Positions 11,477 to 16,536 of a stretch of DNA of 31,516 nucleotides are shown piece by piece; positions within the stretch are counted from its first letter, which is position 1; each line of letters opens with the position of its first letter. Below the pieces are notes generated by a model, which saw only the letters and a program-made list of their open reading frames with translations, did not search any database and had not been told where the DNA came from. The stretch is from assembly GCA_017418765.1 (NCBI GenBank), contig JAFOMV010000174.1, positions 1 to 31,516 of the forward strand, given 5' to 3'. The DNA comes from Ruminococcus sp. GTDB lineage: Bacteria; Bacillota_A; Clostridia; Oscillospirales; Ruminococcaceae. The position numbers and the translations under genes are program-made.

Positions 11477-12130
11477 ATGAATTATTCTGTATCAGCTTCT
11501 GTTCTCAGTGCAGATATGCTCAACCTTGAAAAAGAGATCAGGAAGATGGAAACAAGCGGTATAGATATGCTGCATTTCGATGTTATGGACGGCGTATTCG
11601 TAAATAATATTACATATGGTCTTTCCATTCTTGATGCTGTCAACAAGTGTACAGATATGCCCCTGGATGTTCATCTTATGATCATTGATCCGCTCAGATA
11701 TGCAGAAAGATTCGCCAATTCCGGTGCGGATATCATCACATTTCATATTGAAAGTCAGAGCGATACTCTTGAAACCATTAATGCGATCAAAAAAGCGGGA
11801 GCTAAGGTATCACTCTCAGTAAAGCCGGGCACACCCGTTGAGAAACTATACCCATATCTGCCTTATCTTGATATGGTCCTTATCATGACTGTTGAGCCTG
11901 GGTTCGGAGGTCAGAGCTTTATCCCGGAAACTCTTGATAAAGTAAGAAAGATACGTGAAAAGATTACCGAACTCGGACTTGATACAGATGTAGAGGTCGA
12001 TGGAGGGATAAATGCTGAAACTGCTGATCATGTCATAGAAGCTGGAGCAAACGTACTGGTATCGGGCAGCTATCTTTTCAATGCTCCTGATATGGCTCAG
12101 GCAGCAAGCCTCATCAAGAAAGGAAATTGA
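11477..12130 (+). CDS. rpe: Ribulose-phosphate 3-epimerase
   Basis: TIM-barrel enzyme of the pentose phosphate pathway that interconverts ribulose 5-phosphate and xylulose 5-phosphate. Family landmarks are SASVLSADMLNLEKEI at the N-terminus, the metal-binding DVMDGVFV, DVHLM, and the phosphate-binding VDGGI and GANVLVSGSYLF near the C-terminus. Length (217 aa) is standard. It has a consensus promoter upstream and is first in an operon with three Rnf-like membrane genes; its stop overlaps an alternative TTG start of the next gene. No functional link between rpe and the membrane genes is obvious. Confidence 0.96.
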   Translation: MNYSVSASVLSADMLNLEKEIRKMETSGIDMLHFDVMDGVFVNNITYGLSILDAVNKCTDMPLDVHLMIIDPLRYAERFANSGADIITFHIESQSDTLETINAIKKAGAKVSLSVKPGTPVEKLYPYLPYLDMVLIMTVEPGFGGQSFIPETLDKVRKIREKITELGLDTDVEVDGGINAETADHVIEAGANVLVSGSYLFNAPDMAQAASLIKKGN

Positions 12131-12135
12131 TCCTT

Positions 12136-13080
12136 ATGGCTCAGAGAACAGAACGTTATATATGGCTGGATAAAATGATAACTCTGGCTACACTTTCACT
12201 TATGGCATTTTTCTACTATGGCACTCATTTTCTTGCATCAGCTGTACTATCAGTCGTTACTGCTCTTGCAGCCGAATTCATATCATTGAGACTGCTTCAC
12301 AAAAAGCTGACTCCTGATGACCTTTCATGCACATCGGATGCATTGATAATAGCGCTTATGATGCCTGCTTCTATAGACTATACTATATTAGGTCTGGCTG
12401 TCATATTCGGGATCGTGATAGCCAAAAACGTTTTTGGCGGCAGAGAGAATATGATATTCTCACCTGCGGCAGCTTCATACATTTTTGTGCTCACTTCATG
12501 GGGGAGGGAACTGCTTACCTATCCAGAACCGCATGTCCATACAAGTATAACCGGTAAGGCTGAGACACTTGTGAATTCTGCATCTCATGTTTTCAATATG
12601 ACAGGCAAGATGGACTATACTGATTTTGAGATACTAATGGGAAACTTCAGCGGTCCGTGCGGCGCAGTAAGTATCCTTCTTCTTGCTATAGCGGCAGTGA
12701 TGCTGTGCTTGAGAAAGGATATATCAGCAGGTGCACTTGTCGGTACTCTTTTCGGTACATCAATGTTTGCATTTGTAACGCCTATGATATCGAACAGAGC
12801 AGATTCAGTAAAGTATTCACTCGTTACTAATATGGTGCTTTTTGCTGCGATATATATAATATCAGATATCAGGACAGCACCGAAAAAATGGTATTTCGCT
12901 TTCTTTTACGGCCTTTTCATAGGTATATTTGCTTATATCGTCGTTCTTACGACCGGTAAGGAAAATGCGGTAGTTATCATATCTGTTGTGTTTACTCCTG
13001 CTGCACTCGGACTGCGTATGCTCGAAAGAAAAATAGAGCGTGCTGAAAGCGAGCAGTTATCATCTGAGAAGGAGGCCTAA
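12136..13080 (+). CDS. RnfD/NqrB-like membrane protein (divergent)
   Basis: 314-aa polytopic membrane protein with the RnfD/NqrB fold. Recognisable landmarks are SDALIIALMMPAS and VIAKNVFGGRENMIFSPAAA, matching the paired helices of RnfD, and YIISDIRTAP, matching the conserved (A/S)TDxxTSP loop. The loop that normally carries the covalent FMN motif ([ST]xAT) has no intact copy; the nearest string is TGKAET. The GETSAL landmark of typical RnfD reads CGAVSI. The ATG at 12136 is chosen because AAAGGA (12119-12124) is about 11 bases upstream; a TTG at 12127 is too close. Genes of E and A type follow directly, but no rnfB, rnfC or rnfG is adjacent. A role in ion or electron transport is inferred only from ancestry. 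Confidence 0.82.
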   Translation: MAQRTERYIWLDKMITLATLSLMAFFYYGTHFLASAVLSVVTALAAEFISLRLLHKKLTPDDLSCTSDALIIALMMPASIDYTILGLAVIFGIVIAKNVFGGRENMIFSPAAASYIFVLTSWGRELLTYPEPHVHTSITGKAETLVNSASHVFNMTGKMDYTDFEILMGNFSGPCGAVSILLLAIAAVMLCLRKDISAGALVGTLFGTSMFAFVTPMISNRADSVKYSLVTNMVLFAAIYIISDIRTAPKKWYFAFFYGLFIGIFAYIVVLTTGKENAVVIISVVFTPAALGLRMLERKIERAESEQLSSEKEA

Positions 13081-13082
13081 GT

Positions 13083-13697
13083 ATGATCAGAAGAAAAAGA
13101 ACGATATTCAGCGGTTTGCTTGAAGATAATATGATCCTATCATCGCTTATGCTCATATCTCCTGTTATAATATGCGGTGATACAGTGAAAAATGCGCTTT
13201 CGCTCATATATGCTTTCAATACTATAACCTTTACCTCGCTGATACTCGGTTCATTTATCCCGAGAAAGCTTCCTTATACCATAAGGATCATTATTTACGC
13301 TTTGATATCTTCGCTGGTATATATCCCTGTCAGATGGTTTGCAGTAGAATTTTATCCTGATTCGATACAGCGTATCGGCATATACTATCCGCTGATAGCA
13401 GTTAATTCGCTTATAATCCTGCAAAGCGAAGCTATATTCTATCGCATGAAAAAAGGAAGGATGATTCTTTCTCTGATATTCTATATTATCGGTTTTGATC
13501 TTGTCATGCTTATAACAGGAGTTATTCGTGAGTTTTTTGCATATGGCACCTTCTTCAGCAGAGTAGCAGATATCGACACTACTATAAAAGGTCTTGGATG
13601 CCCCTTTGGCGGCTTCATATTCCTCGGACTGATGTGCGGAATTTACCGCTGGATAAGATCGGCGGTATCATCAGCAGGTGAAAGTGAGGATGACTGA
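13083..13697 (+). CDS. RnfE/NqrD-like membrane protein lacking cluster cysteines
   Basis: 204-aa membrane protein with about six helices, related to RnfE/NqrD. The order of landmarks fits: a short basic N-terminus, a first helix around SSLMLISPVII, YYPLIAVNSLII in the middle, REFFAYGTFF, and a final helix after GGFIFLGL. In typical RnfE the first helix has LCP and the middle helix has VNC; these cysteines hold half of an intramembrane [2Fe-2S] cluster. Here both positions read serine (LISP and AVNS). It starts 2 bases after the RnfD-like gene behind AAGGAGG. Electron transfer by the known route therefore looks impaired; another membrane function is possible. Confidence 0.8.
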   Translation: MIRRKRTIFSGLLEDNMILSSLMLISPVIICGDTVKNALSLIYAFNTITFTSLILGSFIPRKLPYTIRIIIYALISSLVYIPVRWFAVEFYPDSIQRIGIYYPLIAVNSLIILQSEAIFYRMKKGRMILSLIFYIIGFDLVMLITGVIREFFAYGTFFSRVADIDTTIKGLGCPFGGFIFLGLMCGIYRWIRSAVSSAGESEDD

Positions 13698-13699
13698 AT

Positions 13700-14275
13700 A
13701 TGTTTATAATAAATGATCTGATCGCACTACTTGCTGCTAACCTGATATTTTCGCAGGCTTTGGGTACAAGTACTCTTTTTATAGCAGCAAGCGGAAGAAA
13801 AAATCTCATCAGAACAGCCTGCGTTATAACACTGTTTACAACGGTTGCTTCTGCTTTCACATACTTTGTGGATGAGTTTATGCCTGAAAGTATCCGTGTG
13901 TATGCAACACTTATCTGCTATACCTTTATAATAGGCGTACTGTATGCACTGTTCCTTATGATACTTTATTATTTCGGCAGAAAAAAATTCGATGAATACA
14001 AAAAGTACATACATATATCGGCTTTTAACTGTGCTGTAATGGGCACTCTTTTTACGATAAGTGAAAAAGCTGCGGAAGATCCTGAATTGATGGACACCGC
14101 ACATTACTTTATGAAAGGACTTGAAGCAGGTTTTGGTTTTATAATTGCTTCACTGTTCCTTGCTGCTGCATATAAGAAACTTAATTCAGAAAAGGTCCCA
14201 TCCTCGTTCAGAGGTTATCCTGCAATGTTAATATATCTCGGGATAATCTCAATGGCGATATACGCACTAAAGTAA
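13700..14275 (+). CDS. RnfA/NqrE-like membrane protein, partly lacking cluster cysteines
   Basis: 191-aa membrane protein related to RnfA/NqrE. Landmarks are the first helix LLAANLIFSQALGTS, the central ISAFNCAVMGTLF, LEAGFGFIIASLFLAA, and the C-terminal FRGYPAMLIYLGIISM, which matches FKGLPIxLI in RnfA. Of the two cysteines that hold the other half of the intramembrane [2Fe-2S] cluster, the one in NC is kept, while the first (usually LGICP) is replaced by LGTST. It follows the RnfE-like gene after 2 bases. RnfA and RnfE are homologous with inverted topology and normally pair in the membrane, so these two probably form a heterodimer together with the RnfD-like protein. Confidence 0.8.
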   Translation: MFIINDLIALLAANLIFSQALGTSTLFIAASGRKNLIRTACVITLFTTVASAFTYFVDEFMPESIRVYATLICYTFIIGVLYALFLMILYYFGRKKFDEYKKYIHISAFNCAVMGTLFTISEKAAEDPELMDTAHYFMKGLEAGFGFIIASLFLAAAYKKLNSEKVPSSFRGYPAMLIYLGIISMAIYALK

Positions 14276-14298: not shown

Positions 14299-15510
14299 AT
14301 GAGATTCAAGAACAAAGGAAGGAAGATATACAAAACAAAAGAAAAGAATTATTACGGTAAAAGTCCCGTCGGAAAGGCTTTTTCGGTTGTGCTGACCGTT
14401 CTCCTTCTCGGAGGAATAGGCTTTATCGGTTACAGTGTAGCCGAGCCGATCATAAACTATTCAAAAAAAGCAGGAGACAGCGAACTGCCGCAGCCCGCAA
14501 CTGTACCTACTGAAGCTGCCGCAGATGATATCGGTGATGCGATAGGATCAGAGACAGCGGATACTGTTGAGACAAATAAAAACGAGACTGAATCACTGGC
14601 TGGATATTCACTGACAGTCAATGATCTTGTCAATCGTGACTTTCTTGCTTCTGCACTTAAAAGGATACCTGAAGAACAAGGGATAGAATATGTGGAAGTG
14701 CCTCTGAAAGCGGCAGGCGGAAAAATATACTATGCAAGCAATATCCGGACTGCACAGCAGTCTGGAGCTGTGCAGGGACAAATGCCTCTTGGTGAGATCG
14801 TTTCTGTTATCGTACAGGAAGGATACAAACCTATTGCACATATAAGCACATTCAATGATAATATTACCCCTGCTACATTTCCTGAGATGGGTTATCTTAC
14901 GCTTGATGACTGGTCACAGTGGATAGATGATGACTATGAGGACGGCGGAAAGCCCTGGACTTCACCCTTTTCTCCGTCAGCAGTCGATTATAATATCAGT
15001 GTTATCGATGAGGTATCGGGCTCAGGTTTCAGCAAGGTCATATGCAGCGATTTTACATTTCCGGAATTTCGTGATTCTGACATCGAATATCTTGGTGAGA
15101 GCGTGGTCTCAGATGATCGTTATAAGGCTATGACATCCGCTGCCAATACCATATATGAACATATTACCAATAAAGGCTCAACGATGCTGCTCGAGGTATC
15201 GGCAGCAGACATACTGCGTGGCAGCAGTGATATACTTCAGCCGCTGCTGCTTAAAGTGAATACTCTCGTTGTTGATATCGATCTTGACGAGATAAGGTAC
15301 GGAGTTTTTACAGGCGATACAGTTTATGATTTCAGCGGAAGTGCCGCCGAGAATACAGATAAAATGCTCGATCTTATCGAGGAGGAGATAAGCAGTTTCA
15401 AGACTGTGGTCAAAATAAGAGGCAATAATTTTAACCCGTCAGATATTGTAAAAGCTGCCGAAGCAGTAAAGGAGCATGGGATAAACTCATGCATCATAGG
15501 TTCAGTTTAA
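14299..15510 (+). CDS. Membrane-anchored DUF4015-like (putative glycosyl hydrolase fold) protein
   Basis: 403-aa protein with a basic cytoplasmic N-terminus, one membrane helix at about residues 28-50, an acidic linker rich in Glu, Asp, Ala and Thr to about 100, and an extracytoplasmic domain. The domain resembles DUF4015 (PF13200), a TIM-barrel glycoside-hydrolase-like family: an IAHISTFND strand early, PWTSPFSPSAVDYNISVI in the position of the usual W-x-(D/S)P-x-S-x-x-V-x-DYN motif, and FSKVICSDFTFPEF where relatives have a Y-I-R-F-P-like strand. The family is found in sporulating and Gram-positive bacteria, with substrates mostly unproven. It lies 23 bases after the RnfA-like gene behind TAGGAGAG and is last in that operon. 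Confidence 0.7.
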   Translation: MRFKNKGRKIYKTKEKNYYGKSPVGKAFSVVLTVLLLGGIGFIGYSVAEPIINYSKKAGDSELPQPATVPTEAAADDIGDAIGSETADTVETNKNETESLAGYSLTVNDLVNRDFLASALKRIPEEQGIEYVEVPLKAAGGKIYYASNIRTAQQSGAVQGQMPLGEIVSVIVQEGYKPIAHISTFNDNITPATFPEMGYLTLDDWSQWIDDDYEDGGKPWTSPFSPSAVDYNISVIDEVSGSGFSKVICSDFTFPEFRDSDIEYLGESVVSDDRYKAMTSAANTIYEHITNKGSTMLLEVSAADILRGSSDILQPLLLKVNTLVVDIDLDEIRYGVFTGDTVYDFSGSAAENTDKMLDLIEEEISSFKTVVKIRGNNFNPSDIVKAAEAVKEHGINSCIIGSV

Positions 15511-15576: not shown

Positions 15577-16536
15577 ATGTCAGACAATTTTATGGTTTCA
15601 CTTCAGCGTCTTATCGACGAATTCAAGCTTGAGGTGATATATATTCACAAAGATGCAAACGATATCATGATCGATGAAAACGATGTAAACCGTCCCGGAC
15701 TTCAGCTTATGGGATTCTATGAATATTTCAATCCTGAGCGTATACAGATCATAGGAAAGATGGAGTTCGCATATCTTTCTACTATAGATGAGAAAACAAG
15801 ACGTGAACGCTTACAGCTTCTTTTTTCTCAGAGGATACCAGCACTGATAATAACAAGAGAGCTTCCGTATTTTGCAGAAATGCTTGAACTGGCAAAGGAG
15901 TTTGAAGTTCCGCTTCTCAGAAGCAAGGAGAGTACATCCAACTTTATGTCGGGGCTTATCGCATTCCTTAATCTTACACTTGCGCCAAGAATTACACGTC
16001 ACGGCGTACTCATTGAGATATACGGTGAAGGCGTATTCATAACGGGTGAAAGCGGTGTGGGCAAGAGCGAAACTGCTATAGAGCTTGTTAAGCGTGGACA
16101 CAGACTTGTTGCCGATGATGCGGTAGAGATACGAAAGGTATCAAATATCAGCCTTGTAGGAAGCTCGCCTGACAATATCCGTCACTTCCTTGAGCTTCGT
16201 GGTATCGGTATCATCAATGCAAGAAGACTTTTCGGTATCGGTGCTGTTAAGACAACTGAAAAGCTTGACCTTGTAGTCGAACTGGAACAGTGGAATTCTG
16301 AAAAAATGTATGACCGTATGGGCGTTGATACAGAATTTGTATCGATCCTCGGCGTAAAAGTACCTTCTCTGACTATTCCTGTAAAACCGGGACGTAACCT
16401 TGCGGTAATTCTCGAAGTAGCCGCAATGAACAACAGACAGAAGAAGATGGGCTATAATGCAGCAAGAGAACTTCTTAATCGTCTTGGTATGGAATCAGAT
16501 GCTAAAGAGATCGTAAGAGATTATGAGTCTTTCTGA
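15577..16536 (+). CDS. hprK: HPr kinase/phosphorylase
   Basis: Bifunctional enzyme that phosphorylates and dephosphorylates HPr at Ser46 and so sets carbon catabolite control in Firmicutes. The N-terminal domain (about 1-130) precedes TRHGVLIEIYGEG, with the conserved His. Walker A GESGVGKS is at residues 157-164, and the signature LELRGIGIINARRLFG follows. Length is 319 aa, typical. The start at 15577 is set by AGGAGGA (15564-15570); a longer frame from 15532 lacks such a site and is not conserved. It leads a string with murB, rapZ, whiA and dnaE. Its own promoter is not visible. Confidence 0.97.
   Translation: MSDNFMVSLQRLIDEFKLEVIYIHKDANDIMIDENDVNRPGLQLMGFYEYFNPERIQIIGKMEFAYLSTIDEKTRRERLQLLFSQRIPALIITRELPYFAEMLELAKEFEVPLLRSKESTSNFMSGLIAFLNLTLAPRITRHGVLIEIYGEGVFITGESGVGKSETAIELVKRGHRLVADDAVEIRKVSNISLVGSSPDNIRHFLELRGIGIINARRLFGIGAVKTTEKLDLVVELEQWNSEKMYDRMGVDTEFVSILGVKVPSLTIPVKPGRNLAVILEVAAMNNRQKKMGYNAARELLNRLGMESDAKEIVRDYESF

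Follow-up and report, generated by a model that had tools for sequence, protein, structure and literature searches.

The closest described relative of the locus reported here is the Rnf complex (RnfABCDGE) of C. tetanomorphum and A. woodii. RnfE Cys26 and Cys109 together with RnfA Cys25 and Cys113 are given as metal ligands in passages of PMC9588780, and the four equivalent cysteines of A. woodii are said, in parts of PMC11889175, to bind [2Fe-2S], with their mutation abolishing growth and activity. The ion path is debated, being drawn through RnfD in the one text (PMC9588780) and through RnfA/E in the other (PMC11889175). Na+-NQR (NqrABCDEF), a further relative with homologous B, D and E subunits, has been proposed to stem from a duplicated rnf from which RnfB and the cofactor sites of RnfC were lost (text from PMC4014512). 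Here, a stretch of 31,516 nt from Ruminococcus sp. (contig JAFOMV010000174.1; hereafter the window, to which all coordinates without a locus or genome handle refer) was analysed with a focus on its Rnf-like genes D, E and A and the adjoining gene X. Judged from sequence, D-E-A is a spare copy of the Rnf membrane core that has lost nearly all of its electron-carrying sites but is strongly conserved; it occurs, with X as its partner, in a bacterium of the gut, a relative of Ruminococcus flavefaciens. D-E-A-X is very probably a conserved module that arose from a copy of an rnf operon and lost rnfB, rnfG, the [2Fe-2S] ligands of A and E, the flavin mononucleotide (FMN) pocket of D and, in the branch of the window, also rnfC; this copy was probably given a new job.

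Compared with the Rnf complex, the module shares homologous D, E and A subunits, the D fold and the order D-(G)-E-A, and has kept the N-[C/S] half-helix motif as well as several residues of the ion path, whereas it is devoid of B and G (and of C in the window's branch), has lost three of the four [2Fe-2S] ligands and the FMN pocket, and has gained X. Na+-NQR, in contrast, retained the cluster and the flavins and gained NqrF, while the module is marked by the loss of the cluster ligands and of the FMN pocket and by the presence of X; by analogy, the proposed origin of Nqr may serve as a precedent for part of the path taken by the module.

On the plus strand of the window, D (RnfD/NqrB homologue, 12136..13080, 314 aa), E (RnfE homologue, 13083..13697, 204 aa) and A (RnfA homologue, 13700..14275, 191 aa) follow one another with spacers of 2 bases each. 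The preliminary description of this DNA had named three adjacent D-, E- and A-type genes, and the open reading frames (ORFs) were indeed found at these coordinates, with D matching PF03116 (134.5 bits) and E and A matching PF02508 (85.0 and 75.4 bits), all over cut-off; E aligned to RnfE of C. tetanomorphum (7zc6) and A to RnfA. The curated NCBIfam models stayed far under their cut-offs for rnfD (85.1 versus 207.05 bits), rnfE (62.4 versus 213.4) and rnfA (52.5 versus 229.3), and likewise for nqrB (41.2 versus 349.9), nqrD (39.0 versus 244.85) and nqrE (29.4 versus 247.55). That description recognised the D-E-A unit but missed that a fourth gene, X (14299..15510, plus strand), belongs to it; X encodes a transmembrane (TM) helix and a DUF4015 domain (PF13200, 47.4 bits against a gathering score of 27).

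A genome scan for the module yielded 77 loci. Of 197 genomes from the R. flavefaciens FD-1 family, 77 matched the module E profile at E <= 1e-28, comprising 71 that were fetched, 5 already known and G376, a fragment that was left out. In a class sample of 291 genomes, the module was present in at least six among the best 30 matches (G022, G269, G288, G251, G188 and G305). X was found next to D-E-A in 76 of the 77 loci and in 64 of the 71 family loci; the seven family loci devoid of it are L122, L129, L134, L149, L165, L177 and L190, with L122, L149, L165 and L190 being contig ends. As had been claimed, rnfB, rnfC and rnfG do not lie beside D-E-A in the window. Across the 77 loci and the part of the window that was searched, no match to the G model was obtained, and the C and B models gave only one distant ORF in L066 and L072, with up to 16 and 26 bits, respectively. 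This weak RnfC/RnfB-like ORF (L066 1516-3417 and L072 1721-3622, minus strand) lies several kb upstream of D and is probably another Fe-S flavoprotein.

The cluster ligands were assessed with the C. tetanomorphum Rnf chains (7zc6) as reference. In E, Cys26 is replaced by Ser26 (13158-13160) and Cys109 by Ser109 (13407-13409), and in A, Cys25 is replaced by Ser24 (13769-13771), while Cys113 is kept as Cys111 (14030-14032). The alignment thus places the serines exactly where the preliminary description had read them, and bears out that the A-type protein keeps only the cysteine of its NC motif. The accompanying statement that the trio lost its redox centres holds for three of the four cluster ligands but not for the fourth, A C111. 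E S26 and S109 occurred in 121/121 E sequences (the window and the 120 listed of 402 protein-search matches), and A C111 in 121/121 A sequences (the window and the 120 listed of 331 matches), where position 24 was Ser in 120 and Ile in one. Cysteine was found at E26, E109 or A25 in none of the module loci examined, namely 154 for E, with one row gapped at position 26, and 152 for A; the 154 E loci consist of 71 family loci, 76 Ruminococcus-type rows, L076, L077, L112, L113 and three type-2 loci, and none of the 71 family E sequences is identical to an E of the other loci. For the family loci alone, the values were 0/71 (E26), 0/71 (E109) and 0/69 (A25), with A C113 kept in 45/69; overall, A C113 is Cys in 127/152 module loci. 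In contrast, 29/29 canonical rows, a set from which L117 and the type-2 rows are excluded, have Cys at all four positions. A substitute cluster built from E C31 and C185, which are near-invariant in the listed homologues (119/121 and 121/121), was considered and rejected as a module-wide site, since both are absent from L076 and L077; no shifted cysteine substitutes for the lost ligands throughout the module. L117 itself (G115:C9:68000-78000) is a complete C-D-G-E-A-B operon with N-G for N-C in E and GCGSFF for GICPFL in A, one cysteine being displaced by one position, and is possibly a further lineage with an altered cluster.

In D of the window, Arg130 of Rnf is changed to Tyr115, Glu185 to Ala177 (12664-12666), Asn124 to Ser109 and Asn90 to Met75. 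The reading of CGAVSI for GETSAL is thereby confirmed as Glu185 to Ala, and none of the 153 module D rows has Arg at 130 or Glu at 185 (2 and 1 gaps, respectively). Of the riboflavin site, Asp248 is kept as Asp244 (12865-12867), while Asn124 is the serine named above; in the Ruminococcus rows, position 248 is Asp in 75/75 and Asn124 is Ser in 72/75. For covalent flavin attachment, we relied on an alignment-free motif scan, since the variable loop of D is not safely alignable. The motif D..[ST].A[ST] is absent from D of the window, in agreement with the earlier claim that no intact attachment motif is present, and was found in 2/153 module D but 16/19 canonical D; bare [ST].AT, anywhere in the protein, was found in 17/153 and 16/19, respectively. 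An earlier, narrower pattern was of little use as a reference, fitting only 3/7 canonical rows. The loop of the window reads LVNSASH, with the attachment Thr corresponding to Ser150 (12583-12585) in one alignment, although the loop aligns unsurely. Scoring the attachment Thr from a single column was abandoned, as it gave Ser in 73/75 Ruminococcus rows but Thr in 56/153 module rows by a second alignment. In Ruminococcus D, SAS[HY] hardly varies (Ser in 73/75), the motif of two canonical D proteins ends in Ser, and ApbE can also use Ser according to text of PMC12052999. The loss of flavin attachment in D is therefore less certain than the cysteine losses, given that the loop alignment varies and that ApbE also accepts Ser. 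The predicted structure of D keeps the RnfD fold; its next fold neighbours are the ammonium and urea channels (UT, AmtB, Rh), with which D shares only 8-13% identity, and a shared fold shows no function.

The model of X consists of a basic N-terminal tail, a TM helix at residues 23-46, a low-confidence linker at about 43-97 and a confident beta/alpha DUF4015 TIM-barrel-like domain at about 98-403. The domain is placed outside the cell because the N-terminal tail is basic, and it probably faces the cell wall. With a TM helix followed by an outer domain, X appears to have the topology that RnfG has in Rnf. Identity to the window across 74 sequences was 88% for residues 1-24, 78% for 25-56, 18% for 57-104 and 47% for the domain, revealing the tail and the TM helix to be the most conserved part of X. 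A Foldseek search with the model gave 4s1a (Cthe_0052) as the best match (TMt 0.82), followed by Cwp19, GH20 and others, and the profile match to 4s1a had an E value of 8.4e-13. The stretch FDYIRFP of 4s1a, the Asp of which we take to be catalytic, reads CSDFTFP in X; glycoside hydrolase activity of PF13200 is graded 'putative' by Pfam. In the class sample, only three X matches exceeded 120 bits (469.5, 208.9 and 123.4; next 69.7), and these belong to G022, G288 and G269, the three genomes with an E match above 150 bits. Covalent flavin on X was considered and rejected, the narrow motif occurring in just 3/75 X sequences.

Whether a complete Rnf cluster exists elsewhere in the genome was judged from the genomes of relatives. 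Canonical Rnf was also present in 138 of 153 module genomes, that is in 74/79 type-1, 3/3 type-2 and 61/71 further family genomes; the type-1 count is the sum of 21/23, 22/22, G269 and G288, and 29/32, with G336 and G342 being counted partly or wholly by fragments, and G245, which is no module genome, stands outside these counts. Twelve of 12 canonical operons from module-bearing genomes have the order C, D, G, E, A, B and carry the four cysteines, Arg130, Glu185, Asn124 and the RnfC FMN loop. In all 12, the same C, G and B models as used on the module loci found all three genes, with stray second B or C matches in five. The rnfB, rnfC and rnfG genes detected elsewhere are part of complete canonical operons, each with a D, E and A of its own, and probably serve these rather than the module. 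Fifteen module genomes, most of them small or draft, show no canonical copy. The sister genomes G529 and G441 (L141, L142) contain the module but no PF02508 match at 1e-40, and are possible hosts of the module alone.

In basal relatives, the order is rpe-C'-D-E-A-X, where C' is an RnfC-like gene, and in three class genomes (G251, G188 and G305) it is rpe-C'-D-E-A, without X. In 17 of the 71 family loci, C' lies between rpe and D, insofar as the locus extends to rpe; 15 of these have X downstream, the exceptions being L177 and L190, the latter at a contig end. All 20 C' (17 from the family and L114-L116) keep two CxxCxxCxxxC [4Fe-4S] motifs, and all are devoid of the RnfC FMN loop. In the family loci, the rnfG model matched in 0/71 and the rnfB model in 0/71 as an ORF of its own, with one 18-bit B match on a C' ORF (L175). 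In the D-E-A tree, the 13 canonical rows (including L117) group on one side with a support of 100. A D-E-A-X clade of 61 rows (support 100) leaves the C' carriers outside, three changes of C' being needed; this tree is a quick search under a simpler model, with several deep forks below 50. C' is likely ancestral and was lost about three times. The statement that the redox centres are lost therefore fits the window's branch best, while basal relatives keep an RnfC-like gene and, with it, parts of the redox chain in sister branches. A gene for a TM-DUF4015 protein was also found behind complete canonical rnfCDGEAB in at least five class genomes picked by eye (L217-L221 in G105, G044, G202, G156 and G078), directly in L218 and L220 and one gene on in L217, L219 and L221. 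We infer that X descended from this DUF4015 neighbour of canonical rnf. The simplest history would be a copy of rnfCDGEAB with DUF4015 from which G, B and the transmembrane cofactor sites were lost, followed by C'. In three of these five loci, a gene starting with an NPDSDSI(C) motif, presumably a DHH-type phosphatase, intervenes between rnf and the DUF4015 gene.

Three rival explanations were weighed against a module with a new function. That the genes are a decaying duplicate staying in frame by chance would agree with the fact that each of the three subunits has lost cofactor residues and with internal stops marked in the E match of 4/77 family genomes. It is nonetheless highly improbable given the ratio of nonsynonymous to synonymous substitution rates (dN/dS), which was 0.02-0.12 in 24 of 27 pair-by-gene values from seven locus pairs (dS was saturated in the remaining three), the stable gene order and the many invariant residues. 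In the E+A tree, all module rows fall on one side (SH-aLRT 100), with a long-branch warning for L112, L113 and L114. The earlier suggestion of a repurposed module rather than decay is thus supported by dN/dS, conserved order, a separate E/A/D lineage and intact canonical operons in the same genomes. These operons could also mean that D, E or A is swapped into canonical Rnf, to act as a brake or as an assembly factor or to give an uncoupled form, in line with the co-occurrence counted above for type-1, type-2 and further family genomes. We consider such alternative subunits improbable: this co-occurrence is only mildly above background, since 196/291 class genomes match the E profile anyway, the 15 module genomes devoid of a canonical copy include the sisters G529 and G441, and it is the whole D-E-A set, not single subunits, that stays together.

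The third possibility, a residual redox module, is rather doubtful. Here, D would still hold riboflavin or a flavin at the degenerate site, its cytosolic partner would be C' in basal relatives and an unknown protein or canonical RnfC in Ruminococcus, and only the transmembrane and extracellular arm would be lost. The retention of both [4Fe-4S] motifs in 20/20 C' fits this, as does Asn124 of D, a riboflavin contact in Rnf according to passages of PMC9588780 and PMC11889175, which is Asn in 20/20 C' carriers, its variation being confined to loci without C' (kept in 36/133 such loci, changed or gapped in 97/133). Position 248 is Asp in 13 and Glu in 7 of the C' carriers. With Asn124 and Asp/Glu at 248 kept, a riboflavin/[4Fe-4S] pair may survive on the cytosolic side in these carriers. 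The invariant Asp248 of the Ruminococcus rows and the acceptance of Ser by ApbE (text of PMC12052999), together with the near-invariant SAS[HY] and the two canonical motifs ending in Ser, point the same way. Weighing on the other side, the RnfC FMN loop is absent from 20/20 C' but present in 12/12 canonical operons, the window's branch has no C' and mostly has Ser for Asn124, and the ApbE motif is as rare in module D as reported above. A joint loss of the riboflavin path and C' would fit the Asn124 pattern, although the pattern goes back to one or few independent events; as a formal test, the link was dropped, because with one starred pair and three in all, significance is unreachable.

Turning to the function of a non-redox module, the A/E half-helix dimer and the RnfD core would not be drivable by electrons, since no electron route across the membrane is left, and any ion or solute still moved must pass through the part of the complex not involved in redox chemistry, because the cluster ligands are gone. 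We tentatively favour, at somewhat less than an even chance, an ion- or small-solute-conducting, conformationally switching complex that would be coupled to X at the envelope. This is favoured because the path residues of E are kept and D keeps the RnfD fold. For A. woodii, parts of PMC11889175 argue for RnfA/E as the ion path with a rocker switch, E R67, E115, L103, V106 and N107 having been mutated. In the 76 Ruminococcus-type rows, the equivalent residues are L104 in 76, V107 in 75, N108 in 76, E116 in 73 and R/K68 in 76; counting R/K, 5/5 E path positions are kept in this branch, while 25/42 of the E columns that are invariant in canonical Rnf have changed. Of the A-side residues, the Ruminococcus rows keep Y105, and module-specific aromatics lie near the path in sequence (A Y82, 95%; F109, 87%). 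The kept scaffold (E R/K68, L104, N108 and E116; A N110; D Asp244) would conduct ions or small solutes while switching conformation, the TM helix of X would couple the membrane complex to the extracellular TIM-barrel domain at the cell wall, and an ion gradient or a wall ligand would gate the opposite side. An envelope machine, in which the A/E rocker switch passes ions down their gradient and the X helix moves the wall-facing TIM barrel, or a wall ligand gates ion flow, is an unlikely extension of this; equally unlikely, by analogy, is that a Tol/Mot-like principle was reached from a different protein family.

Several points weigh against a conducting module. The Ruminococcus rows no longer have Q85, T110 and T111 on the A side, and conservation of the E side is weaker in the wider family (R68 in 64, L104 in 59, V107 in 22, N108 in 60 and E116 in 51 of 71), where D248 is Asp in 50 loci and Glu in 10. 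The hypergeometric value of about 0.02 (4/4 kept versus 17/42 columns) is uncorrected, and the residues were picked after the alignment had been seen. As cited above, mutation of the A/E cysteines abolished growth and activity in A. woodii, and RnfD is argued not to carry Na+ (both in parts of PMC11889175). X is absent from three type-2 loci, the structures were modelled as single chains, the contact of X with D-E-A being a proposal, and we infer transport from sequence rather than biochemistry.

If the reading as an envelope machine is true, the series from rnfCDGEAB(+DUF4015) via C'-D-E-A-X to D-E-A-X would show a respiratory pump turning non-redox stepwise. A natural, conserved core devoid of electron-cluster ligands is a built-in control for the debate on Rnf coupling. 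The open-access literature, with subscription papers and preprints outside the search, gave no account of Rnf modules without the cluster. Source annotations use 'electron transport complex subunit E' or 'RnfE' for the module E proteins, so that a complex without cofactor sites can be counted when the energy metabolism of bacteria from rumen and gut is reconstructed.

The plus-strand order in the window is rpe, D, E, A, X, hprK, murB, rapZ, whiA and dnaE, with the flanking names being our reading. Upstream, rpe (ribulose-phosphate 3-epimerase, 11477..12130, plus strand) ends 5 bases before the start of D; downstream, hprK (15577..16536, plus strand) is the neighbour in the Ruminococcus branch, and both serve as context only. 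Among the 77 loci, rpe was present in 75, D in 76, E in 77, A in 77, X in 76 and hprK in 71; rpe also lies upstream in 66/71 family loci and in L112-L116. The absences of rpe, D and X are contig ends (L004, L050, L046). hprK is absent from L001, L015, L030 and L046, which are contig ends, and from L076 and L077, where different genes follow. An antisense gene, not present in the window, lies between rpe and D in non-Ruminococcus type-1 loci (L112 3197-3778, L113 1821-2414, L076 8279-8854 and L077 2150-2725, minus strand); that of L112 is MecA-like (PF05389, 34.4 bits), and those of L113, L076 and L077 were compared by eye only. An E-A gene fusion, suggested by a single open frame across both matches in G018 and G020 (414 and 398 aa), was rejected, the DNA of L066 and L070 having a stop codon between the genes. 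The internal stops flagged in the module E match (one TGA in G435:C86, one TAA in G556:C189, one TAA in G481:C20 and two TGA in G539:C95) may reflect a frameshift, decay or alignment past the gene end. In the genome of L003, a third, divergent PF02508 pair (G314:C147:15936-17061; 67.8 and 40 bits) was found beside the module and canonical pairs, and may be another module or bin contamination.

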